From NCBI RefSeq assembly GCF_041080865.1, contig NZ_CP160906.1:3247629-3311628 (forward strand): a DNA stretch of 64,000 bases. Direction: 5' to 3'. The DNA comes from Psychromonas sp. MME1 (lineage in GTDB: Bacteria; Pseudomonadota; Gammaproteobacteria; Enterobacterales; Psychromonadaceae). The notes beneath the pieces were generated by a model that was not told where the DNA came from, did no database searches, and saw nothing but the letters and a program-made list of their open reading frames with translations. Within the stretch, counting starts at the first letter, position 1. The number at the start of each line of letters is the position of its first letter. The position numbers were made by a program, and so were the translations under genes. This document shows, one piece after another, positions 46,086-60,856 of the stretch.

Positions 46086-46475
46086 CTAATTAGTAAAGGC
46101 ATCAATAATCGGGCAATCTGGTTTATCGTCACCACAGCATTTTTCGGTGATCGCTTTTAAACTATTTAAGACCGCCTGTTGCCGTTCAATTTTTCCTTGT
46201 AGCTCAGCGATTTTTTCTGACAACAGCGCTTTGACATCGGCGCTGCGTCTAGCTTCATTCGCTGATAAGGTTAATAACGCCTTGCTCTCTTTTAAATTAA
46301 ACCCCGCCTCTTTGGTTTTTTTAATAAAGTGCAATTGTTGAATTAAATTGGGGGGATAATAGCGATATTCATTGTCACCCCGCGGCGCCGGTGAAATTAA
46401 TCCAATCTCTTCATAGTGACGAATAGACTTTACCGATAAGCCCGTCTCTTTTGCTGCTTGGCTAATAGTTAGCAT
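46086..46475 (-). CDS. cueR: Cu(I)-responsive MerR-family regulator CueR
   Basis: 129-residue activator. The N-terminal winged helix (MLTISQAAKETGLSVKSIRHYEEIGL) is followed by a dimer helix and a C-terminal metal loop CCGDDKPDCPI, with the two cysteines spaced as in copper-sensing CueR and the usual Cys-x7-Cys. It lies 60 bp downstream of copA on the same strand with AGAGGAA before the ATG. Two promoters with 19-bp spacers nearby are its probable targets. Confidence 0.93.
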   Translation of the reverse strand: MLTISQAAKETGLSVKSIRHYEEIGLISPAPRGDNEYRYYPPNLIQQLHFIKKTKEAGFNLKESKALLTLSANEARRSADVKALLSEKIAELQGKIERQQAVLNSLKAITEKCCGDDKPDCPIIDAFTN

Positions 46476-46535: not shown

Positions 46536-49085
46536 TTAATCCGTTTTGGCTTTAAAAAAACGTAAGCGATTCGCATTGCTGACCACGGTGAGTGATGACA
46601 ATGCCATCGCACATCCAGCAATAACCGGGTTAAGTAATAGGCCAAAAAAGGGGAATAACACCCCCGCAGCAATGGGAACACCTGCGACATTGTAAATAAA
46701 TGCGCCGACCAAATTTTGTTTGATATTACGCAGCGTGGCTTTACTCACGGCAATCGCATCGGCAAGGCTATGCAGCGATCCGCGCATTAAAGTGATATCG
46801 GCGCTCTCTATCGCAATATCGGTGCCCGTACCAATGGCAAAGCCGACATTGGCCAGTGCCAGTGCAGGCGCATCGTTAATGCCATCTCCCGTCATACCGA
46901 CAATTTCACCCTGCGCTTGTAATTCCGCCACCTTTTTCGCTTTATCTTCGGGGGGGACTTGTGCAAAAAACTCACTGATGCCAACGTCATCGGCAACCGC
47001 TTGTGCTGTCTCCTGATTATCCCCCGTTAACATGATCACGCGGATACCACGTTTTTGCAAACGTTTGATGGCGGCGAGGGAATCCTCTTTGATCGGGTCA
47101 GCAACGGCAATCACGGAGGCTAATTGACCATCAATGGCGAAGAAGATCGGCGTTTTCGCGGCTTTAGCCATCTTTTTGCTGACCTTGAGACTGTTATCAT
47201 CAATGGCGATACCTTGGCTGACCATCAGTTGCTGATTGCCCAAAAGGAGCTGCCTGTTTTGCACTTTTCCTTCGACACCTTGAGCAACGATGGCATTAAA
47301 ATCGCTGACCCTGTTAATCGTTATCTTGCGCGCTTTGGCGGACTCGACAATCGCCTCTGCAAGCGGGTGCTCAGAACCCGACTCTAAACTGGCAGCCAGT
47401 GCCAATAAACGCGCTTCATCCATATTGTTAGTGATATAAATATCGGTGACCTTAGGTTTACCCAGGGTGATGGTGCCCGTTTTATCGAGCAACATAACCG
47501 TTATTTTTGATGCATTTTGTAGCGCTTCGCCATTACGAATTAACACACCTGCTTCCGCTGCTTTGCCGACACCGACCATCACCGACATCGGCGTCGCTAG
47601 CCCTAGCGCACAGGGGCAGGCGATGATCAGCACGGTGGTCGCCGAAACAACGGCAAAGGCGATACTGGGTTGGGGGCCAAAATTTAGCCATGCTAAGGCA
47701 CTACCGATAGCGATGATTATAATGGTCGGTACAAAATAGGAAGCGATAACATCGGCTAAACGTCCGATCGGTGGTTTAGCGTTTTGTGCTCGTTTAACCA
47801 TGGTGATGATGCGAGCGAGTGCGGTCTCTTTACCCACGCGTAGGGTGCGAAAAATAATCGTGCCACTTTTATTGATGGTGCCTGCAGCGACTTCGTCATC
47901 GACCCCTTTCTTAACCGGCATCGGCTCGCCAGTGAGCATCGATTCATCAACGCTGGTTGTCCCTTCGCAGACTTTACCATCAACGGGGATACATTCACCG
48001 GGGCGAACACGAACAAGATCGTTAACTAATACCGCAGCGATGGCAATATCAACCTCTTTACCATTGCGGATAACGCGCGCTGTTTTTGCCTGTAAGCCGA
48101 TTAATCGTTGTATCGCTTCGCTCGTGCGGCCGCGCGCTTTCAATTCCAGTGCTAACCCTAAATTAACGAAGGCGATGATCATCGCACTCGCTTCAAAATA
48201 GAGATGCCTAGCCATCTCTGGTAACGCTTCTGGGGAGATAACCACGACCATAGAATAGAGCCAAGCGGTTCCTGTGCCCAAGGCGATTAAGGTATCCATA
48301 CTGGCACTATGGTTAAGCAAAGCACGCCACGCTGCGATATAAAAATGTCGCCCGGCAAAGTACATCACTGCCACGCAGATAAGCCCTATCACTAGCCAAA
48401 TAGTTCGCTCGATAGCGGTGTTGACGGTCATTGCTCCGCCCAACATGCCATATAGCATCAACGGGATGCCCAGCCCTAGGGCGATCCACATTTGGGTTAT
48501 TAATTTCTGATAATTTATTTGTTCTGCTTGCTGTTTTTCTTCGAGCAGTTGCTGATCACTGGCATTGCCCGTGCTTTTGGCTTGATATCCAGCGGCAACA
48601 ATTGTGGCTATTAATGTTTCTTTCGCCACATTACCGGTGACGGAAACGGTTCGCAGGGGGAGATTCATTTGCGCCTGTTGTACACCAGTCAGGGCATGTA
48701 ATGATTTTTCGATTTTATTGACACAGCTGGCACAGGTTGCACCTTCAATCAGTAATTCTTGCGTATTACTGTGTGCGGTTAATTCAGTTGCGTCTGCTTC
48801 CGCTTTGCCGCTATCTATCACGGTTAGCGTCGCGCTTTTATCGGCAGAGTCATAATCAGAGGGCGTGGTGGTTTGATAACCTTTAGCGCTGATTACGGCG
48901 AGAATCGCATGCACGCTGTTATCGTAATCGACACTCGCCGCGATAGTCAGTTGTGCACTTTTGCTAGGAAAATCGACGGTCGCGCTGACCCCCTCAATCT
49001 CATCGAAGGCGCGTTGCAATCGATTGGCGCAGCCATTACAGCTCATTCCCTCTATGGGTAATGTTAAAGTGCGAGATGAAGGCAT
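46536..49085 (-). CDS. copA: Cu(I)-exporting P1B-type ATPase CopA
   Basis: 849-residue inner-membrane pump for cytoplasmic Cu(I). Two N-terminal HMA domains have GMSCNGC (13-19) and GATCASC (115-121). Then come eight helices, the transmembrane CPC motif ([11 protein letters not shown]), actuator LTGEP, phosphorylation motif [15 protein letters not shown] and hinge [13 protein letters not shown]. The C-terminal YNVAGVP and [14 protein letters not shown] motifs mark a P1B-1 copper ATPase. Preceded by a CueR-type promoter on the minus strand. Confidence 0.97.
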
Positions 49086-49118: not shown

Positions 49119-49149
49119 AGTTTAGACCTTACCCTAACGTTAAGGTCAA
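49119..49149 (-). promoter_or_regulatory. CueR-type promoter of copA
   Basis: On the minus strand TTGACC (-35) and TAAACT (-10) are separated by 19 bases containing the inverted repeat TTAACGTTAGGGTAAGG. A 19-bp spacer with a dyad is the hallmark of MerR-family promoters; the TTGACCTTA start resembles known CueR sites. Located 34 bp from copA. Confidence 0.85.
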
Positions 49150-49180: not shown

Positions 49181-49211
49181 TTGACATTCCCCTTGGGGTA
49201 AGGCTTATTAT
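49181..49211 (+). promoter_or_regulatory. CueR-type promoter of the cus operon
   Basis: TTGACA (-35) and TATTAT (-10) are separated by exactly 19 bases, with CCCCTTGGGG at the dyad centre and TAAGG after it. This closely resembles CueR-controlled promoters and would drive the plus-strand genes starting at 49241. Confidence 0.87.
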
Positions 49212-49240: not shown

Positions 49241-49603
49241 ATGAGACAAGCGATTACTTTAATTTTGATGCTGACAATTATGGCGACTTTCACTCAGAAA
49301 GCGGCCGCATTTGCATCTTTATTGGATAATGGCATGGTTTCCATGAGCCACTGCCCGATGTCGATGGGATTAAAGCAAGCGCCGATGGAGATGGATAAAA
49401 CAGATTGTCCAAGCAATGACAGTGCGCAAACGATGGATTGCCAAAGCGATTGTGATTTGATGACGGTTGTCTCTGTTCTCTATTTTATTGATAATGATAC
49501 CTCTGTTAGCCAACTTATTTTGCTGCAAAGCTATCACCCCGTTACCACTTCCTCCCCCTATTATTTTTCCGAATCCCCATATCGGCCCCCCTTTATAGGC
49601 TAA
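49241..49603 (+). CDS. small secreted Cys/Met-rich protein at the head of the cus operon
   Basis: 120 residues with a signal peptide (about 1-23, ILMLTIMATFTQKAAA). The mature part is rich in Met and Cys (MSHCPMSMGLKQAPMEMDK, DCPSN, DCQSDCD; cysteines at 38, 56, 67 and 71), which suggests binding of Cu(I) in the periplasm. The C-terminus ends in an aromatic/proline tract (SPYRPPFIG). I do not know a named family. It follows the CueR-type promoter directly and precedes cusC by 139 bp. Confidence 0.75.
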   Translation: MRQAITLILMLTIMATFTQKAAAFASLLDNGMVSMSHCPMSMGLKQAPMEMDKTDCPSNDSAQTMDCQSDCDLMTVVSVLYFIDNDTSVSQLILLQSYHPVTTSSPYYFSESPYRPPFIG

Positions 49604-49742: not shown

Positions 49743-51038
49743 ATGAAAATTACCTCCTGTTTATTAGTTATAAGTCGTTCATTACTGACGCGTTTGTTGA
49801 GCACTGCTATTTTACTTGCTGTCAATCATCTGGCCGCCGCAATGAGTCTTGAGGATGCGGAATATTTGGCGATTAAATCCGATCCTGCACAACAGATCTA
49901 TCAATCAAAACAGGCCGCCTTGATTGCCCAAGGGGTAGCAGGTTCAACGCTGGCCGATCCGATGATCAAAATAGGCATGGCGAATATCCCGACGGATAAT
50001 TTTGAGTTAGACCAAGATCCCATGACCCAACTTAGCTTTGGGGTGGCGCAGCAATTTAGCCGAGGCTCACAACGAGAATTGACCCAAGCTGGCTTTAACC
50101 AGCGTTCAGAAATAGCCGTTTTGCAAGCCTTAGATCGCCAATTGAGCGTAAAAAAAACGGTGCGTGAACTTTGGTTTAACATTTTATTTATTGATAAATC
50201 AATGCAAATCGTTAACGAAAATAAAGCCCTCTTTTTAGGTTTTTATCGCGATCTGCAGTCGAAATTCTCCTTGGGGTTAGCACAGAGTGATGATTTGATT
50301 TCTGCAGAAATTGAGATAGGTAAGTTCGATGAAAAATTGGCGTCACTGAATCAGAAGCGCCTTAACTATCGCACCTTACTGAGTGAGTATATTGGTCAAT
50401 ATGCCTACGACAAGCTACCCAGTGATATTCCCCAATGGTCTGAAACCCTCTCCTATGTCAGCACTGCAAAGGTGCAAGGGGATCATTATGATTTATTGAC
50501 CATGCATCCAAAAACCAAAGCGTTAACGCAAGGCATTAGCGTGGCGGATAACGGCATTGCCTTTGCAGAAGAGAACTATAAACCGAGTTTTAAGGTCGAG
50601 GTGGGTTACGGGCAGCGCTTTAGTGAAGATGCGATGGGGCAGTCAAGGTCAGATCTGGTGAGCGCCTTTGTCTCCATGGATCTGCCTATCTTTACCGATA
50701 AACGTCAAGATCAGCAGCTTATCTCTGCGCAACATAACAAGGGGCAAAAACAAGCAGAACAGCGTCTCTTATTACGCCAATTGAATGCGTTGCTCAATAG
50801 TGAATTGATTAATTATCAGCAGATAAAAGAGCGCATGCAGCGTTATCAAACTAGCTTACTGAAACAGGCAAAGCAGCATAGTCAAATAGTCGAGGAGAGT
50901 TATCAATCTAATACGCGTTCCTTTAAAGCGGTGATTGATGCTTACATTCATGAGCAGAGCCTGACATTAGAGTATCAACAACTTTATTTTGAAAGCCTTA
51001 ATATGCTTGCAAAAATTCGTTATTTACAAGCACTGTAA
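49743..51038 (+). CDS. cusC: outer-membrane efflux protein CusC-like (TolC family)
   Basis: 431 residues with a long N-terminal signal sequence (cleavage near AAAMSLEDAE) and TolC-type repeats of about 190 residues rich in helical heptads. It provides the outer-membrane exit duct for the CusBA pump. AAGGA lies upstream. Paired tightly with cusB 12 bp downstream. Assignment to Cus is by operon context. Confidence 0.88.
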   Translation: MKITSCLLVISRSLLTRLLSTAILLAVNHLAAAMSLEDAEYLAIKSDPAQQIYQSKQAALIAQGVAGSTLADPMIKIGMANIPTDNFELDQDPMTQLSFGVAQQFSRGSQRELTQAGFNQRSEIAVLQALDRQLSVKKTVRELWFNILFIDKSMQIVNENKALFLGFYRDLQSKFSLGLAQSDDLISAEIEIGKFDEKLASLNQKRLNYRTLLSEYIGQYAYDKLPSDIPQWSETLSYVSTAKVQGDHYDLLTMHPKTKALTQGISVADNGIAFAEENYKPSFKVEVGYGQRFSEDAMGQSRSDLVSAFVSMDLPIFTDKRQDQQLISAQHNKGQKQAEQRLLLRQLNALLNSELINYQQIKERMQRYQTSLLKQAKQHSQIVEESYQSNTRSFKAVIDAYIHEQSLTLEYQQLYFESLNMLAKIRYLQAL

Positions 51039-51050
51039 TAGGAAAATAGG

Positions 51051-52490
51051 ATGCGTTATTTAATTATTTTAATCATAGGATTAGTGGTCGGCTTCTTTGC
51101 CGCCAATATAGAACAGATCAATGGCCTATTTGCCAGCAGTGAAAAAAACGCTGAACCAGAAATTTTATATTGGGTTGCGCCGATGGACGCCAACTATCGC
51201 CGTGATAAACCCGGGAAATCACCGATGGGGATGGATTTAGTCCCTGTCTATGCAGAAACAAATAGTGCTACAAAAGCTGCGCCTAAAATCCTCTATTGGG
51301 TTGCGCCGATGGATGCCAATTATCGCCGTGATAAACCCGGTAAATCGCCGATGGGGATGGATTTAGTACCCGTTTATGAAGAGAGCGCGGGGCAATCTGA
51401 AGCAGGCCTTGTTACGATTTCGGCGCAAGTTGAGAATAACTTAGGTGTACGTACCGCTGCCGTGGTTAAAGGTGACTTTACAACGGAGATCAACACGCTC
51501 GGTACAGTACAGGTGAATGATGACGCCGTTTGGCAGATTAATAGCCGCGTATCGGGATGGATAGATAAACTTTACGTGAAATCGGTGGGCATTGAGGTTG
51601 GCAAAGGCGATCCGCTATTTGCATTATATTCACCAGAGTTAGTGCAAGCGCAAGAGTCGTTATTAAATGCCATGCATTTGCAACGCAGTGAACTGATTCG
51701 TTCATCGAAAGTGCGTTTACAAGCCTTGGGGGTGAATAGTGAGCAGATTGAAAAAATCGCTAAAAGTAAAAAAGTTTCCCAGAACATTACGATCTATGCA
51801 CCGCAAAAAGGAACGATCTCAGAACTGAAATTAAATGAAGGTGCCTTTATTTCACCCGCCACGCAGGTTATCAAAGCGGTCAATTTAGACACGGTTTGGG
51901 TGGACGTAGAAATTTTTGCAGGGCAGGCTTCTCTGGTCAACTTGGGCGATAAGGCCGTTATGCAGCTAGACTATTTTCCCGGTCAGGCGTGGCAGGGTAT
52001 TGTTAGTTTTATTTATCCAGAAATGAATGTTAATAATCGTACCTTGGTCGCACGTTTACAGTTTGATAACCCCAATGCGCAATTAAAACCGAACATGTTT
52101 GCACGCGTCCTTTTACAGCCTGAAATTGAGAAAAACAGATTACAAATTCCACGCCAAGCGGTTATCTATGCGGGCAATATGAACCGTGCTGTTTTAGCCT
52201 TAGGCAATGGTCAGTACAAATCGGTACTCATTAATTTAGGGTTAGAGAATAGAGACTCGGTCGAGGTGTTATCGGGTTTAAATGAAGGAGATAAAATCGT
52301 CACCTCGGCACAATTTTTACTCGACTCCGAGTCCAGTATTAGTGCCGATTTTGAGCGAATGTTAGAGCTTGAAAAAGCCAAACCAGTCGAGCCTGAATAT
52401 GATTCGACCATTCCCGATGATTCCCTCGATTGGTTAGATTTAGGGGTAAATTGGCCGGCTAGTGGAGTAGCGAGTGAGGTGACCTCATGA
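51051..52490 (+). CDS. cusB: periplasmic adaptor CusB with duplicated metal-binding segment
   Basis: 479-residue membrane-fusion protein linking CusA and CusC. An N-terminal anchor (about 1-20) is followed by two near-identical heavy-metal-binding segments, residues about 38-69 and 80-111, each containing YWVAPMDANYRRDKPGKSPM-GMDLVPVY. Then come the barrel-sandwich, helical hairpin and beta-barrel domains. The usual Cys/His ligands of this domain are replaced by Met residues, fitting Cu(I). The duplication is also evident at DNA level. Stop overlaps the cusA start. Confidence 0.93.
   Translation: MRYLIILIIGLVVGFFAANIEQINGLFASSEKNAEPEILYWVAPMDANYRRDKPGKSPMGMDLVPVYAETNSATKAAPKILYWVAPMDANYRRDKPGKSPMGMDLVPVYEESAGQSEAGLVTISAQVENNLGVRTAAVVKGDFTTEINTLGTVQVNDDAVWQINSRVSGWIDKLYVKSVGIEVGKGDPLFALYSPELVQAQESLLNAMHLQRSELIRSSKVRLQALGVNSEQIEKIAKSKKVSQNITIYAPQKGTISELKLNEGAFISPATQVIKAVNLDTVWVDVEIFAGQASLVNLGDKAVMQLDYFPGQAWQGIVSFIYPEMNVNNRTLVARLQFDNPNAQLKPNMFARVLLQPEIEKNRLQIPRQAVIYAGNMNRAVLALGNGQYKSVLINLGLENRDSVEVLSGLNEGDKIVTSAQFLLDSESSISADFERMLELEKAKPVEPEYDSTIPDDSLDWLDLGVNWPASGVASEVTS
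51162..51383 (+). repeat. tandem in-frame duplication in cusB
   Basis: Bases 51162-51257 and 51288-51383 are two 96-bp units, 126 bp apart, about 87% identical with mostly synonymous changes. They encode the two metal-binding segments. Confidence 0.9.
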
Positions 52491-55400
52491 TTGCCAAGGT
52501 CATAAATTGGTCCATTAAAAACCGCATTATGGTGCTATTGATAACCGTGGCGATTGTTGCCTATGGGATATTTGCCGTACAGAAAACGCCGATTGATGCG
52601 ATTCCCGATCTTTCCGATGTACAAGTCATCATCAAGACGAGTTATCCGGGGCAAGCGCCGCAAGTGGTTGAAGATCAAGTCACTTATCCTCTGACGACCG
52701 CGATGCTCTCGGTGCCGGGGGCAAAAACGGTACGTGGTTACTCCTTTTTTGGTGACTCCTACGTCTACATCATTTTTGATGATAATACCGATATCTACTG
52801 GGCTCGCTCGCGGGTATTGGAGTACCTTTCGCAAGTTGCCCCAAATCTCCCTAAAGAGGCGCGTTCAGCCTTGGGGCCTGATGCCACGGGCGTTGGTTGG
52901 ATATTCAGTTATGCGCTGGTGGACAAAAGTGGTCAACACGATTTAAGTGAACTGCGTAGTTTACAGGATTGGTTCTTAAAATTTGAACTGCAAACCGTTG
53001 CGGGTGTTTCCGAAGTGGCAACGGTTGGCGGCATGGTAAAGCAGTATCAGGTACGGGTTGATCCGAATAAGTTACGTGCTTACAACCTATCGCTTAGCAA
53101 AATCATGGCGGCAATCCAGAGTGCCAATCAAGAGAGTGGTGCTAGCGTTATTGAGATGGGCGAAGCAGAATACATGGTGCGAACATCCGGTTATCTCTCA
53201 TCGATAGATGATCTCAAGGCTATTCCATTACAGGTCAATAGGCGAGGGACGCCGCTATTATTGGGGGACGTGGCAACGATTAATCTAGGCCCACAAATGC
53301 GCCGTGGTATTACTGAACTTAACGGCGAAGGGGAAGTGGTCAGTGGCGTGATCGTGATGCGCTTTGGTGAAAATGCACAGGGTGTCATCGCAGCGGTTAA
53401 AGAGAAACTGAATGAGTTGCAAAAAAGTTTGCCGAGTGGTGTTGAAATTGTGCCAACCTATGACCGTTCTGAACTCATTGCCGATGCGGTAGAGAATCTT
53501 TACCATAAGCTACTGGAAGAGTTTATTGTGGTCATTTTGATCTGTGCCGCTTTCCTATTCCATTTCCGCTCCTCCTTGGTGGTCTTACTCAGTTTACCCA
53601 TAGGTATTTTTGTCGCCTTTATTATTATGTCTTGGCAGGGAATTAACGCTAATATTATGTCCCTTGGCGGCATTGCCATTGCCATCGGCGCGATGGTTGA
53701 TGGGGCGATCGTGATGATCGAAAATGTCCATAAGCATATGGAGAAAACCGAGCTAAACGATGAAAATAGGTGGCAGGTAATTAGCAAAGCAACCCTTGAA
53801 GTGGGGCCAGCACTGTTTTTCTCACTGCTAATAATCACCTTTAGTTTCCTACCAGTTTTTGCCTTGGAAGGGCAATCGGGCAAAATGTTTTCGCCACTGG
53901 CCTTTACTAAAACCTATGCGATGGCGGCCTCCGCAGGGCTGGCGATCACCTTGATCCCAGTATTAATGGGCTATTTTATTCGCGGCAAAGTGTTAGCTGA
54001 ACATAAAAATCCATTGAATCGCCTGTTGATTGCTATTTACATGCCTGCGTTATCCCTGAGTTTACGTTTCCCAAAACTCGCGATCAGTGCTGCATTCACT
54101 ATTTTATTAGTGGGGTTCTATCCGATCAGTCACATTGGTAGTGAGTTTATTCCACCTCTCGATGAGGGTGATCTGATGTATATGCCAACTACTTATCCGG
54201 GGATCTCCATCGGTAAAGCGCGTGAGTTGTTACAGCAAACCAATAAGCTGATTAAGACCGTGCCTGAAGTGAAAACCGTTTGGGGGAAAATAGGCCGTGC
54301 TGAAACAGCCACCGACCCTGCACCATTGACCATGATTGAAACCACCATACAATTTAAGCCCAAAGCGCAATGGCGCACGGGCATGACTAAAAAAATGATC
54401 ATCGATGAACTCGATAGTTTGATTCAATTTCCGGGGTTAACTAACGCTTGGGTGATGCCGATAAAAACACGTATTGATATGTTGGCAACGGGGATTAAAA
54501 CACCCATCGGGATTAAAATTGCGGGAGCAGATTTAGCGGAAATCGAAAAAATCGGCAAGCAGGTTGAGCTGATTTTAAAAGAGGTTAAGGGAACCGCCTC
54601 GGTCTATGCTGAGCGAGTCTCCGGTGGACGCTATGTGAAGGTCGACATTGACCGAGAGAAAGCTGGACGTTATGGGCTTAATATTGCGGAAATTCAGCAG
54701 TTAGTTGCCGTGGCGATTGGGGGTAAAAACATTACCGAAACCATTGAAGGGTTAGAGCGGTACCCCGTTAATTTACGTTATCCGAATGATTATCGTGATT
54801 CCGTCACTGCCTTGAAAACACTGCCGATAGTCACAGCAAATAAAATGAACATCAGTTTAGCCGATGTCGCCAATGTTTATATCGAAGCGGGTGCGCCGAT
54901 GATAAAAACAGAAAATGCGCGTCTTAACGGTTGGATTTTTGTAGACATCGAAAACCGTGATTTGGGTTCCTATGTGCAAGAGGCAGAGCGGCAAGTCAAT
55001 GAGCAAATTAATTTACCAGCGGGTTATTCGTTAGCTTGGTCTGGGCAATATGAGTACATGGAAAAAGCCAATGCGCGTCTGGCCAAGGTGATCCCTGTGA
55101 CCCTCGTTATTATTGTTTTGTTGTTGTATTTCGCTTTTCGTCGAGTAGCTGAAGTATTGTTGATTCTTTCGACCTTGCCCTTTGCCTTAATGGGGGGGAT
55201 TTGGTTGATGTTTTTACTTGACTATAACTTCTCCGTTGCCGTTGGTGTCGGCTTTATCGCGCTCGCTGGCGTTTCGATTGAAATTGGCGTTATTATGCTA
55301 TTGTATTTAAATCAAGCATTAAGAGAAAAACAGGATAAGCGGCTTGAAAAGTTTAATCTTAATGATCTCAAAGAGGCTGTTATGGAAGGGGCTGGGCTGC

Positions 55401-55633
55401 GTGTGCGCCCAATCATGATGACGGTGGCCACCGTGGTCATCGGCTTAATACCTATTATGTACGGTGATGGTACGGGATCATCGGTGATGCAGCGTATCGC
55501 GACACCGATGATCGGCGGCATGGTTAGTGCCATCATATTAACGCTGCTGATTTTACCCGCAGTCTATTTTCAGTGGAAAAAAATGAGCTATACCCCTATT
55601 TTCAAAGGTCATTATAAAAAGGAAACATTATGA
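52487..55633 (+). CDS. cusA: copper/silver RND efflux pump CusA
   Basis: 1048-residue inner-membrane proton-driven pump of the heavy-metal RND (HME) family. It has twelve transmembrane helices in two blocks and large periplasmic loops. The proton-relay segment is GGIAIAIGAMVDGAIVMIEN (about 400-419), and the Met-rich path is reflected in TRIDMLATGIKTPIGIK. ATGA overlap with cusB at the start and with the following gene at the end. Confidence 0.96.
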   Translation: MIAKVINWSIKNRIMVLLITVAIVAYGIFAVQKTPIDAIPDLSDVQVIIKTSYPGQAPQVVEDQVTYPLTTAMLSVPGAKTVRGYSFFGDSYVYIIFDDNTDIYWARSRVLEYLSQVAPNLPKEARSALGPDATGVGWIFSYALVDKSGQHDLSELRSLQDWFLKFELQTVAGVSEVATVGGMVKQYQVRVDPNKLRAYNLSLSKIMAAIQSANQESGASVIEMGEAEYMVRTSGYLSSIDDLKAIPLQVNRRGTPLLLGDVATINLGPQMRRGITELNGEGEVVSGVIVMRFGENAQGVIAAVKEKLNELQKSLPSGVEIVPTYDRSELIADAVENLYHKLLEEFIVVILICAAFLFHFRSSLVVLLSLPIGIFVAFIIMSWQGINANIMSLGGIAIAIGAMVDGAIVMIENVHKHMEKTELNDENRWQVISKATLEVGPALFFSLLIITFSFLPVFALEGQSGKMFSPLAFTKTYAMAASAGLAITLIPVLMGYFIRGKVLAEHKNPLNRLLIAIYMPALSLSLRFPKLAISAAFTILLVGFYPISHIGSEFIPPLDEGDLMYMPTTYPGISIGKARELLQQTNKLIKTVPEVKTVWGKIGRAETATDPAPLTMIETTIQFKPKAQWRTGMTKKMIIDELDSLIQFPGLTNAWVMPIKTRIDMLATGIKTPIGIKIAGADLAEIEKIGKQVELILKEVKGTASVYAERVSGGRYVKVDIDREKAGRYGLNIAEIQQLVAVAIGGKNITETIEGLERYPVNLRYPNDYRDSVTALKTLPIVTANKMNISLADVANVYIEAGAPMIKTENARLNGWIFVDIENRDLGSYVQEAERQVNEQINLPAGYSLAWSGQYEYMEKANARLAKVIPVTLVIIVLLLYFAFRRVAEVLLILSTLPFALMGGIWLMFLLDYNFSVAVGVGFIALAGVSIEIGVIMLLYLNQALREKQDKRLEKFNLNDLKEAVMEGAGLRVRPIMMTVATVVIGLIPIMYGDGTGSSVMQRIATPMIGGMVSAIILTLLILPAVYFQWKKMSYTPIFKGHYKKETL

Positions 55634-56337
55634 ATATCAGAAAAAGTAAAATCGCATTAGCACTAACAGGCGTACTCTTTATGGCTATGCCACTTTCTAG
55701 CGCCTTCGCCGATCAAGACAGTTGTGAAATAAAAGAGACACGATTGGGTGAAAACATGAAGCACATGAAAAGTGAGTTGCGTGCCTATGTAAAAGCGTTT
55801 AAAAAAGATGATGCTAAAATGATGCAGGACCATCTTGATAACTTGTTGAAGTTAAGCGAGCAGGCTGCGCAGGAAACACCCGTTAAAATAAAAAACATGC
55901 AGGCGATGCACGATGATCACATGGAAGAGATGGACCATAGTGATATGGACAAGATGTCCCATGATGAGAAAAAAGATAAGAAAGATAAGAAAGATAAGAA
56001 AGATAAAAAGGATAAAAAAGAGAAAAAAGATAAGAGCGATAAAAAAGATAAAGACGCACATAACCATATGAAGGATAAACATGATCATGAAACGGATCAC
56101 GACATGGACCTTGATATGGAGATGGATCATGATATGTCCGCTATGCCGACAATGGAGGGAATGAGTGCTGAGCAACATCATCAACATATGAAGTATTCTC
56201 AGGGAATGATGGAACTACAGGATCTCTTTAAAGCGTTAAATCAAACCAAAGATAAAGCTAAAATTAAAGAGATTTTAGAAAAAATAAAAGAGCACAGTAA
56301 AAAAAGTCATCAAAAATTCCGTCAACATTGTGATTGA
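55630..56337 (+). CDS. cytochrome-b562-like four-helix protein with a charged Met/His-rich insert
   Basis: 235 residues. Signal peptide 1-27 (PLSSAFA). Residues 37-90 resemble helices 1-2 of cytochrome b562, and about 185-233 resemble helices 3-4, ending in SHQKFRQHC with a candidate heme histidine His227; Met43 or Met46 may be the other ligand. Between them lies an insert of about 95 residues rich in Met and His (HDDHMEEMDHSDMDKMSHDE, MDLDMEMDHDMSAMP) around a Lys-Asp repeat. The start overlaps the cusA stop (ATGA), so it is coupled to the pump. A periplasmic copper or redox role is inferred; cytochrome function is unproven. Confidence 0.8.
   Translation: MNIRKSKIALALTGVLFMAMPLSSAFADQDSCEIKETRLGENMKHMKSELRAYVKAFKKDDAKMMQDHLDNLLKLSEQAAQETPVKIKNMQAMHDDHMEEMDHSDMDKMSHDEKKDKKDKKDKKDKKDKKEKKDKSDKKDKDAHNHMKDKHDHETDHDMDLDMEMDHDMSAMPTMEGMSAEQHHQHMKYSQGMMELQDLFKALNQTKDKAKIKEILEKIKEHSKKSHQKFRQHCD
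55970..56058 (+). repeat. Lys-Asp coding microsatellite
   Basis: Successive AAAGATAAG-type 9-base units encode KDK repeats in frame within the b562-like gene. The purity of the repeat suggests slippage-driven length variation. Confidence 0.85.
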
Positions 56338-56364
56338 TTTTAACCCGTAAAATTGATCTGCGAT

Positions 56365-56531
56365 TTATACCAACTCCGGTAAGTATGTGATCTAAATTTC
56401 GCGTAGGATAAACAGCTTAATTCAAGGCGTAATTTGACGTAAATGGTTATTCCCTTTGCGAAAATTACAACGCAGCAGTAAGTTGTTTTAACCAGTAAAA
56501 TAGATCAGCTATTTATCGGAATTGGTATTAT
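56365..56531 (+). repeat. MITE-like element, short copy
   Basis: 167 bp bounded by TTATACCAACTCCGG and TCGGAATTGGTATTA. The interior matches the copy at 23940 over most of its length (AAGTATGTGATCTAAATTT, AAAATAGATCAGC). It lies between the b562-like gene and a terminator. Confidence 0.88.
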
Positions 56532-56550
56532 TCCGATTGCTATAATAATG

Positions 56551-56586
56551 AAAGCAACCGTTGCAGCACGGTTGCTTTCTTTTTTA
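56551..56586. terminator. rho-independent terminator
   Basis: GAAAGCAACCG and CGGTTGCTTTC form an 11-bp stem with the loop TTGCAGCA, followed by six T residues. It closes the cus operon after the repeat and separates it from the second RND pair. Confidence 0.88.
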
Positions 56587-56681: not shown

Positions 56682-57737
56682 ATGAATAAAAAACTATTTG
56701 CGCTTAGCTGCGTATTATTTTCCCTTGTGATTACCCCGTTTAGTGTCGCCAAGCAGGCAGCCCCTGCGCCACGTGCCGTACCCGTCAAGACCGAAGTTGT
56801 TGGACTGCAAGAGAGGGCGCAATCGATCTCCTTAATCGGTAAGTTGCAATCGCAGCACTTTGTGAATTTGGCCTTTGAAGTATCAGGTAAAATCAGTGCT
56901 ATTCATGTTAAAGCCAATCAACAGGTAAAAGCTGGACAGTTATTGGTACAACTTGATGATCAAACGGCACAAACGGAACTACTTGAAGCGCAAGCCTATT
57001 TGGCGGATGAAAAACGTAAGTTAGCTGAATTTAGTAAGTTATTGTTAAAAAATGCCACTTCACGAACACAGGTCGATGCCCAGTCGGCGTTGGTAGAAAT
57101 TGCAGCGGCCCGTTTACAGGCGGCAAAGGTTCACCTCGATTTACATTATTTACGCGCTCCATTTTCAGGTACCTTGGGCTTTATTGATTTTAGTTTAGGT
57201 AAACTCGTTAATGTAGGTGAAAGCTTACTAACCTTAGATGACTTGTCAGTAATGGATCTTGATTTACATATCCCTGAGCGTCATCTTTCTCAGCTTAGGA
57301 TTGGCATGCCCGTTAGTGCAACGACCTATGCCTGGCCTGATAACCGTTTTATCGGAGAGATCAAAGCGATCGACTCTCGTATTAACAGCGATACACTTAA
57401 TTTACGTGTACGAGTACAGTTTGCTAATCAGCAGCTACAACTGAAACCGGGCTTAATGATGTCAGCGAAAGTGAATTTCCCTGCCGTGGAACAAGCTATT
57501 ATCCCTATTCAAGCGCTTGAATATTCAGGTAGTAAACGTTTTGTGTATGTGATTGATAAAGAGAGTCGTGTAACACGCCAAGAGGTGATACTCGGTGCAC
57601 GTATCAATGATAGTGTGCTCATTGAAAAAGGCGTTAACGTCGGCGATGTGGTCGTTGTACAGGGCTTAGTGAATATGCGTGATGGCCTATTGATTAAAGA
57701 TTTAGGTGACCCAAAAGATAACCGGGAGGTGCACTGA
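56682..57737 (+). CDS. RND efflux periplasmic adaptor subunit
   Basis: 351-residue membrane-fusion protein with a signal peptide (FALSCVLFSLVITPFSVAKQA), a biotinyl-lipoyl-like domain split by a helical hairpin, a beta barrel and a membrane-proximal domain. It pairs with the RND transporter directly downstream (TGATG overlap). AGAGAG lies before the ATG at 56682. Probably drug or organic efflux; no outer-membrane partner is encoded here, so it may use a shared TolC. Confidence 0.9.
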   Translation: MNKKLFALSCVLFSLVITPFSVAKQAAPAPRAVPVKTEVVGLQERAQSISLIGKLQSQHFVNLAFEVSGKISAIHVKANQQVKAGQLLVQLDDQTAQTELLEAQAYLADEKRKLAEFSKLLLKNATSRTQVDAQSALVEIAAARLQAAKVHLDLHYLRAPFSGTLGFIDFSLGKLVNVGESLLTLDDLSVMDLDLHIPERHLSQLRIGMPVSATTYAWPDNRFIGEIKAIDSRINSDTLNLRVRVQFANQQLQLKPGLMMSAKVNFPAVEQAIIPIQALEYSGSKRFVYVIDKESRVTRQEVILGARINDSVLIEKGVNVGDVVVVQGLVNMRDGLLIKDLGDPKDNREVH

Positions 57738-60700
57738 TGTGGCTCTCTGATACAGCGGTAAAACGACCCGTTGTCGCGATTGTATTGAGTTTATTGCTCT
57801 GTGTCTTTGGTGGTGTCTCTTTTTCAAAACTCGCAGTGCGTGAAATGCCCGATGTAGAAAGCCCCGTGGTGACCATTAATACCCGTTACGATGGTGCTGC
57901 TGCCTCGATCATGGAAAGTCAAATAACCTCGGTGATTGAAGAGCAAATCACCAGTATTAGTGGTATTGATGATATCACTTCGGTGTCGCGTAATGGCATG
58001 TCTCGTATTACCGTTACCTTTGAACTCGGTTGGGATTTAACGGAAGGTGTCAGTGATATACGTGACGCGGTCTCAAAATCGATACGCCGTTTACCCGATC
58101 AAGTGGATGCGCCCATTGTCTCTAAAAATAATGGCGCGGGTGAGCCTTCTATCTACATAAATCTTAATTCAACGGTGATGGATCGAACACAGTTAACAGA
58201 TTATGCGGAGCGTGTCCTAGAAGATAGATTTAGCCTCATTTCTGGTGTCAGCTCGGTATCATTGTCCGGTGGCTTGTATCAGGTAATGTACGTGAAATTG
58301 TTCCCTGATTTGATGGCGGGGCGTGGGGTGACGACCAAAGATATTCTCGATGCACTGAAAAGCGAAAATATTGAAAATCCCGCGGGTGAAGTGCGTAACG
58401 ATACGACTGTTATGTCAGTGCGAGCGGCACGTTTATATGAAACCCCTCAGGACTTTGATTATCTGGTGGTACGCACCGCTAATGATGGCACACCAATCTA
58501 TTTAAAAGATGTTGCTAAGGTGTCCGTTGGTGCTGAGAATGAAAATTCCTCCTTTAAAAGTAATGGTGAAATTAATCTTAGCTTAGGTATTATTCCGCAA
58601 ACCGATGCAAACCCTTTGCAGGTGGCGCAAGCGGTGCAGCAAGAAGTGGACAATATCCAACAGTTCTTACCGGAAAATACCACGCTCAAAGTTGATTACG
58701 ATGCGACTGTATTTGTCAAACAATCGATAAGTGAAGTTTATCAGACCCTGTTTATTACTGGCGGTTTGGTGATTCTGGTTTTGTATATTTTTATCGGGCA
58801 AGCGCGTGCTACGTTGATCCCCGCTATCACCGTTCCTGTCTCTTTGATCTCCTCTTTTATTGTTGCTTACTCCTTGGGCTTTTCCATTAACTTAATCACC
58901 TTAATGGCACTCATTTTAGCCATCGGTTTGGTCGTGGATGATGCCATTGTGGTGGTCGAAAACATATTTCACCATATTGACCGAGGTGAAAAACCGCTAT
59001 TAGCGGCGTACAAAGGGACGCGTGAAGTGGGGTTTGCGGTTATTGCCACCACGCTTGTGTTGGTGATGGTCTTTTTACCTATCTCTTTTATGGATGGCAT
59101 GGTTGGTCTATTGTTCACTGAGTTTTCGGTATTACTGTCGGTGTCAGTTATCTTCTCTTCACTTATTGCGTTAACTTTAACGCCCGTATTGAGCAGTAAA
59201 ATTCTTTCCGCTAAACGCAAACCGAATGCTTTTAACCGTTTTACAGATGAACTTTTCCAGCGCTTAGAAGGTTTTTATCGAGATATCGTGAAGCAGGCAA
59301 TCCGTTTCCGTTATGCTGCTCCTTTTGTGATTATCGCCTGTATTACAGGCTGTCTGTTTCTCTTTAAGGCGATACCGAGTCAATTAGCACCACAGGAAGA
59401 TCGCGGTGTTATTTTTGCTTTTGTTAAAGGCGCGGAAGGAACCAGTTATAACCGTATGACGGCCAATATGGATATTGTCGAGGCGCGTTTGCTACCTCTA
59501 TTAGGGGAGGGGTTGATCAAGTCAATCAGCACCCAAGCGCCCGCCTTTGGAGGAAACGCGGGCGATCAAACTGGTTTTGTGATCATGGTGTTGGAGGATT
59601 GGGCTGCACGAGATAAGAGTGCCCAGCAAGCCCTTGGCGTGGTACAAAAGGCGCTTGCCGATATTCCTGATGTGAAAGTCAGACCGCTTCTGCCCGGATT
59701 CCGAGGTGGCTCCAATAATCCAGTGGAATTTGTCTTAGCTGGTTCTGATTATAGTGAACTGAATGAATGGGCTGAATTACTCAAGGATAAAGCAGAACAA
59801 GCTGGTTACTTAAGCGATGGGCAACTCAATTATTCAGAGAAAACACCTGAATTGGTGGTGTCTATTGATAAAGAACGCGCGGCAGAATTGGGCATTAGTG
59901 TCAGTGATATATCCAGTACCCTTGAAGTGATGCTAGGTGGACGATCTGAAACAACCTATGTTGAGCGCGGTCAAGAGTACGATGTCTATCTACGTGGAGA
60001 TGAAAATAGTTTTAATAATGTTACCGATTTAAGCCAAATTTATATGCGCAGTCGCAGTGGGCAATTGATCACCCTCGATACCGTGACAAACATAGAAGAA
60101 CAAGCAGGTGCCAATAGACTCTCTCATACTAGTAAACAAAAATCGATCACTATCGAGGGGAATATGGGGGGCAGTTACTCTCTGGGGCAGGTATTAGATT
60201 ATTTAGATGCGCAATCCGCATCATTGTTACCGGGGGATATATCTATCTATTATTCCGGTGAATCGAAGGATTTTAAGGAAAATCAAAGTAGCGTCTTAAT
60301 TGTCTTTGCTTTAGCTTTGTTGGTCGCCTACTTAGTGTTGGCGGCACAATTTGAAAGTTTTATTAATCCGCTAGTTGTTATGTTAACCGTACCAATGGGC
60401 GTCGTAGGCGGGTTTATTGGCTTGAATTTGATGCAGCTGGGACTCAATATATATAGCCAAATCGGCATGCTAATGCTGATCGGCATGGTTACTAAAAATG
60501 GTATCTTAATTGTCGAGTTTGCCAATCAATTGCGTGATAAAGGGGTGAGTTTAGATAAGGCGATTATTGATTCTTCTGCGCGTCGTTTAAAACCGATCTT
60601 AATGACTGCATTTACTACTTTAGCAGGCGCTATACCGCTTATTTTATCAACGGGAGCAGGTTATGAAAGTCGAATTGCCGTGGGAACTGTGGTCTTTTTT

Positions 60701-60856
60701 GGTATGTCCTTTGCTACCTTCATCACCCTCTTGGTCATTCCTGCAATGTATCGCCTCATTTCTGGCAACACCCATTCTCCGGGTTATGTACAGCAATTAT
60801 TAGAAGCAGAACTTGCTGAAAATCAAATAGATAAACAGGCGAGAAATATCGATTAA
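57737..60856 (+). CDS. RND-family multidrug efflux transporter
   Basis: 1039-residue inner-membrane pump of the HAE-1 (AcrB-like) family. Twelve helices; the proton-relay aspartate pair is in AIGLVVDDAIVVVENI (about 400-415). The porter segments with repeated N-terminal and central domains are complete. It starts on the stop codon of the adaptor gene. Substrate unknown. It is distinct from CusA in family and sequence. Confidence 0.93.
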   Translation: MWLSDTAVKRPVVAIVLSLLLCVFGGVSFSKLAVREMPDVESPVVTINTRYDGAAASIMESQITSVIEEQITSISGIDDITSVSRNGMSRITVTFELGWDLTEGVSDIRDAVSKSIRRLPDQVDAPIVSKNNGAGEPSIYINLNSTVMDRTQLTDYAERVLEDRFSLISGVSSVSLSGGLYQVMYVKLFPDLMAGRGVTTKDILDALKSENIENPAGEVRNDTTVMSVRAARLYETPQDFDYLVVRTANDGTPIYLKDVAKVSVGAENENSSFKSNGEINLSLGIIPQTDANPLQVAQAVQQEVDNIQQFLPENTTLKVDYDATVFVKQSISEVYQTLFITGGLVILVLYIFIGQARATLIPAITVPVSLISSFIVAYSLGFSINLITLMALILAIGLVVDDAIVVVENIFHHIDRGEKPLLAAYKGTREVGFAVIATTLVLVMVFLPISFMDGMVGLLFTEFSVLLSVSVIFSSLIALTLTPVLSSKILSAKRKPNAFNRFTDELFQRLEGFYRDIVKQAIRFRYAAPFVIIACITGCLFLFKAIPSQLAPQEDRGVIFAFVKGAEGTSYNRMTANMDIVEARLLPLLGEGLIKSISTQAPAFGGNAGDQTGFVIMVLEDWAARDKSAQQALGVVQKALADIPDVKVRPLLPGFRGGSNNPVEFVLAGSDYSELNEWAELLKDKAEQAGYLSDGQLNYSEKTPELVVSIDKERAAELGISVSDISSTLEVMLGGRSETTYVERGQEYDVYLRGDENSFNNVTDLSQIYMRSRSGQLITLDTVTNIEEQAGANRLSHTSKQKSITIEGNMGGSYSLGQVLDYLDAQSASLLPGDISIYYSGESKDFKENQSSVLIVFALALLVAYLVLAAQFESFINPLVVMLTVPMGVVGGFIGLNLMQLGLNIYSQIGMLMLIGMVTKNGILIVEFANQLRDKGVSLDKAIIDSSARRLKPILMTAFTTLAGAIPLILSTGAGYESRIAVGTVVFFGMSFATFITLLVIPAMYRLISGNTHSPGYVQQLLEAELAENQIDKQARNID

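Follow-up and report, generated by a model that had tools for sequence, protein, structure and literature searches.

A cytochrome b562-like protein with a methionine- and histidine-rich loop is encoded behind cusA in a Psychromonas cus operon

Introduction

Cytochrome b562 (CybC, PF07361) is a mainstay of protein engineering, but its cellular role is poorly known; Met7 and His102 are the axial ligands of its heme. CusF (PF11604), whose fold is a beta-barrel, is a small periplasmic product of the cusCBA operon with a role in copper hand-over. Other periplasmic copper proteins are rich in histidine and methionine: the His/Met segment of the cupredoxin CopI (NF047895) binds Cu(II) as a peptide, according to excerpts of PMC13308877, and the Met/His-rich periplasmic protein CopM of Synechocystis (DUF305) binds Cu(I) and is co-regulated with an RND pump, as stated in passages of PMC4335983. 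In excerpts of PMC9973294, the leaders CutF, CruR and CzcI (DUF2946) are described with a signal sequence, a CxxxC motif and a C-terminal proline motif; CutF acts as a nascent-chain copper sensor and CzcI lies upstream of czcCBA. Psychromonas itself is placed by a passage of PMC3548706 in a clade with core CopA and CusABC plus PcoA and/or PcoC, P. ingrahamii being without CusC.

Here, a stretch of 64,000 nucleotides from Psychromonas sp. MME1, referred to below as the window, was analysed with emphasis on a b562-like protein gene that follows cusA, and the locus was compared with these systems and with related genomes.

Results

The cus operon and its upstream region

Five co-directional genes on the + strand make up the operon: a CutF-like leader gene (49241..49603), cusC, coding for an outer-membrane factor of the OEP type found by domain search (49743..51038), cusB (51051..52490), cusA (52487..55633) and the b562-like gene (55630..56337). 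By ORF reading, the ATG of the last gene overlaps the TGA of cusA as ATGA, in agreement with the coupling claimed in the preliminary description of this DNA. The same description had counted a six-part operon, which was not retained; copA, a copper P-type ATPase gene recognised by domain and family searches (46536..49085), and a cueR-like MerR regulator gene downstream of copA (46086..46475; TIGR02044 score of 143.8 bits for a cut-off of 147.4) are divergent, on the - strand. The domain search of the CusB adaptor gave two HMBD copies and matched no CusF domain. CusA is an RND pump of the Cu(I)/Ag(I) type, with 1268.8 bits against TIGR00914 (cut-off 701) and 1344 bits to E. coli CusA versus 555 to ZneA. 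In an alignment with 3t51, the Met residues of YMP, PLTM and RIDM are aligned with those of the Cu(I)/Ag(I) triad of E. coli CusA, and the triad is kept. A terminator-like hairpin with a T run is found in the sequence after the operon (56550..56579, + strand). An intergenic repeat of about 165 bp (56362-56530) separates the cus operon from the RND system that follows it; counting this copy, the genome has 43 matches to the repeat, of which 31 reach at least 95% identity. Directly downstream, 56682-60856 encodes another RND pair, an adaptor (HlyD_D23) with a permease (ACR_tran).

Promoter-like sites of the CueR type, noticed by eye and then tested, are present before the leader gene (TTGACA-19-TATTAT, 49181..49211, + strand) and before copA (TTGACC-19-TAAACT, 49119..49149, - strand). 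With the pattern TTGACN-N19-TNNNNT and at least 4/6 matches to TATAAT, such a site was detected in 12 of 16 Psychromonas leader upstream regions versus 54 of 3200 Markov shuffles, and many of the leader-upstream sites show by eye a CCC/GGG core like that of CueR sites. The exact ACCTT-AAGGT dyad was not found within the window. Among 14 cusC upstream regions of families f2 and f10, one gave a weak match to the CueR-type site and 13 gave none. The shape of the promoter and the presence of a cueR gene suggest that the operon may be induced by copper via CueR.

The leader product has a signal peptide recognised by eye and scores 19.1 bits against DUF2946, below the gathering cut-off of 23.7. The CxxxC motif and the C-terminal RPP were counted by eye in 16/16 aligned Psychromonas leaders. 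For a stem-loop that would mask the following ribosome-binding site, the fold of the leader mRNA gave a z value of -1.68, 10 of 200 shuffles folding as well. Judged on its sequence, this gene looks like a metal-sensing leader of the CutF/CruR/CzcI kind; it differs from the described members in preceding cusCBA-b562 and in its sub-threshold DUF2946 score.

A predicted b562-like four-helix bundle

The b562-like gene codes for a protein of 235 residues with an N-terminal signal peptide, located by eye at about residues 1-27. Its AlphaFold2 model contains four helices (38-58, 62-80, 180-205 and 209-230) in which the pLDDT means over 10 residues are mostly 88-95, while pLDDT is below 50 across most of residues 96-168 and the mean of the whole model is 63.7. 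By VIA-align, residues 37..231 of the model correspond to residues 1..106 of E. coli cytochrome b562 (256b_A), with a Z of 12.7, which unrelated helical bundles can also reach, an rmsd of 2.3 Å over 103/106 residues and 21% identity. On the basis of this structure alignment, M43 (codon 55756..55758, + strand) is placed on Met7 and H227 (codon 56308..56310, + strand) on His102. The b562-like bundle with a C-terminal histidine that had been proposed is supported by the model, and the axial methionine has been found too. In the Foldseek search, b562 variants were the best matches, with probabilities near 1 but E values of at least 0.3 and none at 0.001, and for the model of a short homolog designed bundles outranked b562 (Z of 14.8 versus 12.4). 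Since unrelated helical bundles reach such Z values and designed bundles can outrank b562, the fold alone does not decide kinship.

At the sequence level, the window protein scores 15.1 bits against PF07361 over residues 39-102, below the Pfam gathering cut-off of 30; its C-terminal part alone scores 14.4 bits, and the whole protein 10.5 bits against the NCBIfam b562 equivalog NF011632, for a cut-off of 130. No b562 match was returned by PDB sequence searches with the window protein and with two profiles.

Homologs and kinship with b562

A degenerate-pattern scan of the genome contigs with the window protein alone retrieved no relative, whereas a profile search matched 74 of the 394 genomes of the order. 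By their match ranges, 37 of these 74 contain true homologs (20 in f1, 10 in f2, 5 in f10 and 2 in f7). In the other 37 the match is confined to the loop repeats (within model positions 55-170) and falls in open frames of 179-681 aa; they were not counted as homologs. Within Psychromonas, a homolog is present in 20 of 24 genomes. A PF07361 scan of 369 genomes of the class gave 5 matches, 4 of them above the cut-off. Scores of at least 30 bits are obtained by unlinked homologs, namely the short Psychromonas copies L012 (30.8) and L020 (31.0), L072 (41.3), L073 (35.3) and the Oceanospirillum maris homolog L108 (51.6), whereas the cus-linked homologs scanned singly all stay below the cut-off (L071 29.0, L017 27.2, L067 23.3 and L021 22.6 bits) and the cus-linked L002 and L006 gave no PF07361 match at E 0.01. 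In the tree, the short Psychromonas copies, whether cus-linked or not, fall in one group (support 99/95). Because the short unlinked copies pass the cut-off and group with the short cus-linked ones, the homology chain to b562 is sound even though the loop-bearing proteins miss the cut-off.

Conservation was counted on 39 homologs (21 Psychromonas, 10 f2, 5 f10, 2 f7 and 1 Oceanospirillum), P. hadalis (G004), whose gene is split between contigs, being left out. These are the fair counts, as the 22-row alignment A3, in which Met, His and Cys are invariant, had excluded four His-less homologs; in the row of G106 two residues precede the likely start, and neither falls in a column that was counted. 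The axial Met is found in 39/39 homologs and the axial His in 35/39. Two extra cysteines, C32 (codon 55723..55725, + strand) and C234 (codon 56329..56331, + strand), are both present in 36/39 homologs and both absent from 3, one alone never being seen, and this all-or-none pattern fits a disulfide between them. The window protein is probably a periplasmic, disulfide-clamped cytochrome b562 homolog, for which export to the periplasm, heme b and the C32-C234 bond are predicted. Like CybC, it has a predicted four-helix bundle, the axial Met and His positions and an export signal, but it differs in its Met/His loop of about 100 residues, in the two Cys near its ends, in its location in a cus operon and in its Pfam score below the cut-off.

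The four His-less Psychromonas homologs (G003, G005, G013 and G016) form one clade (support 89/88). Three of them are also without both Cys, and their loops keep 18-29 Met and 7-11 His. As the axial His has been lost while the Met/His loop has been kept, heme looks dispensable in this clade. G003 has a second cus-linked copy which retains the axial His. For one His-less pair, dN/dS is 2.06 in helices 1-2 versus 0.00-0.18 in seven other pairs, a weak value with a dS of only 0.035, and 0.07 in helices 3-4, again on small numbers. The loci of the clade are L007, L009, L010 and L016; in L010 and L016 the frame stops short of the usual C-terminus.

Genes for homologs stand behind cusCBA in Psychromonas as well as in two further families of the order. 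Of 37 loci examined, 20 belong to Psychromonas and 17 lie outside. The order cusC-cusB-cusA-b562 was observed in 14/17 outside loci, and cusA-b562 in 16/20 Psychromonas loci, with cusC also in view in 15. At the Psychromonas locus L079, cusCBA is present and the contig ends inside the b562 gene, and three of the 20 are unlinked copies (L088, L089 and L094). The homolog of G023, examined separately from these loci, is cus-linked. The link to copper export drawn earlier from the ATGA overlap is supported. Short unlinked b562 genes were seen to adjoin cytochrome b561 genes at L072:2888-4986, L073:8257-9318 and L074:7627-8714; at L072 a cytochrome c-like protein (sub-threshold match) and DUF411 stand between b562 and b561. 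A b562-b561 electron-transfer pair is possible at these three loci.

The loop between helices 2 and 3

The loop joining helices 2 and 3 spans residues 88-188 (55891..56193, + strand) and is mostly of low confidence, as for a disordered segment, in the model. Its 101 residues comprise 15 Met, 13 His, 23 Lys and 23 Asp, which verifies the metal-ligand-rich insert noted initially between these helices. The 28 Met and His residues compare with 11 in the next-best 101-residue stretch among the 46 ORFs that reach 150 aa in the six frames of the window, and the binomial P of finding at least 28 in the loop is 2.4e-15 at the pooled frequency. By topology, helix 2 runs back to where helix 1 starts, which places this arm at the bundle's heme end.

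Whether relatives carry the same insert had been raised together with its description. Its position is conserved; its content is not. Residues 112-142 (55963..56055, + strand) form a Lys/Asp tract of 31 residues with no Met or His, encoded by a 9-bp tandem repeat. This tract is absent from the other 38 homologs, whose sequences were inspected, and a recent spacer is a more plausible reading of it than a metal site. In the relatives the loop contains units like MDHSKM, MDHSNM and MNHDM; repeats of the MDHSxM type are found in most cus-linked ones, and loop length ranges from 12 to 127 residues among the homologs. At least 8 loop Met were counted in 29/32 cus-linked versus 0/7 unlinked copies (Fisher P of 7.8e-6, ignoring shared ancestry and with a threshold of 8 chosen after the values were known); three cus-linked homologs are without any loop Met. 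On plasmids, the loop repeats of one f2 homolog have matches in genes annotated as CopB and as multicopper oxidase, and a tblastn search of plasmids with the window protein gave no match. From its composition and its tie to cus, the loop is in the cus lineage a flexible Met/His arm, and this arm probably binds copper. Motifs of the DHSxM type were also observed in the last 60 residues of 14 CusB proteins of f2 and f10 (L058-L071), none being seen in 16 Psychromonas CusB rows.

The gene position behind cusA

PF11604 has no match in the window protein nor elsewhere in its own genome, and CusF was found in 1/24 Psychromonas genomes, some of which are incomplete. In that genome (G022, L124:3547-10939), the gene order is leader-cusC-cusB-cusA-CopI, with two CusF domains in CusB and a CopI of 260 bits against NF047895 (cut-off 200), and the b562 gene lies elsewhere and is without a Met-rich loop. 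The genomes G008 and G010 have leader-cusCBA but no b562 match, and a CusF domain is present in 3/4 scanned f10 CusB proteins, beside a b562 gene. A simple replacement of CusF by b562 as a general rule was rejected, as these f10 CusB proteins contain CusF domains themselves; with G008 and G010 devoid of b562, the b562-like protein appears as an optional accessory and not as an obligatory CusF replacement.

With CusF, the window protein would share a small size, a periplasmic location, a cusCBA operon and copper hand-over, but it has no PF11604 match and is helical where CusF is a beta-barrel. CopI is likewise a periplasmic copper protein with a His/Met-rich segment, encoded behind cusA in G022, but differs by its cupredoxin fold, its own copper site and the absence of heme. 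CopM, Met/His-rich and periplasmic as well, belongs to another family and a separate operon.

Discussion

We lean towards the window protein being a periplasmic copper-capturing b562 homolog whose Met/His arm serves CusCBA. The entire operon would be switched on by copper via CueR; the arm would catch periplasmic Cu(I)/Cu(II) and hold copper for CusB/CusA, and the protein would take the slot filled by CusF in E. coli and by CopI in one sister species. More speculatively, the heme could exchange electrons with arm-bound copper and set the Cu(I) state that CusA exports; such copper-heme electron transfer is possible. A stronger version, in which copper is taken up by the disordered arm next to the heme of the disulfide-clamped bundle, converted to Cu(I) by that heme and then delivered to CusB/CusA, is in our opinion rather improbable.

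The main rival of the copper-capturing reading is a copper sponge or chaperone built on a b562 scaffold, in which the Met/His arm alone matters and the heme is a vestige or serves just to stabilise the fold. CopM offers a precedent, being Met/His-rich, periplasmic and able to bind Cu(I) in the passages of PMC4335983. The four-species clade that lost the axial His, and in three cases both Cys, while keeping the Met/His loop speaks for a sponge at least in that clade, and the raised dN/dS in helices 1-2 of one of its pairs points, weakly given its low dS, in the same direction. Helices 3-4 of that pair are constrained, though, G003 has its second, cus-linked copy with His, and the axial Met and His are both kept in 35/39 homologs, the window protein included; for the window protein we hold the sponge to be doubtful, if still a serious contender.

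Two further readings place the protein in electron transport. It could be an ordinary b562 electron carrier whose loop is a neutral repeat expansion with no copper function, as the range of loop lengths, the slippage-type 9-bp repeat of the Lys/Asp tract and the three unlinked short homologs adjoining cytochrome b561 genes would allow. The restriction of Met-rich loops to cus-linked copies (29/32 versus 0/7), with different units in different families, and the match of the f2 repeats to copper proteins make this very unlikely. It could also be a copper-responsive respiratory redox partner, its heme carrying electrons between periplasmic copper and a b561-like or c-type protein, and export being a secondary role. 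The neighbourhoods of L072, where a short b562 stands beside the cytochrome c-like protein, DUF411 and b561, and of L073 and L074, beside b561, bring this reading to mind, but none of these three copies is cus-linked and their loops are devoid of Met and His; we consider it very unlikely as well.

The preliminary description regarded the locus as the best candidate for a new system in the window. A wholly new system is not supported: the CueR-type promoter, the CutF-like leader, CusCBA and the b562 fold are all parts of known kinds. A search of the literature, judged by titles and covering few subscription journals, found no description of a b562 in a cus operon, and the available excerpts of PMC8478169 on Alteromonas copper genes make no mention of 'b562'. 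Judged from titles, the locus joins known parts in a combination unreported in the literature found, a variant rather than a wholly new system.

The conserved cus-linked branch with its copper-type arm suggests a testable role for b562, namely periplasmic copper handling, and the accessory slot behind cusA can house unrelated proteins, b562 or CopI. The homologs offer a natural series: proteins with axial His and arm, with arm and no His, and with His and no arm. Should the heme indeed feed Cu(I) to the pump, a heme-copper partner would stand in place of CusF or CopI, and cytochrome b562 would have a physiological role.
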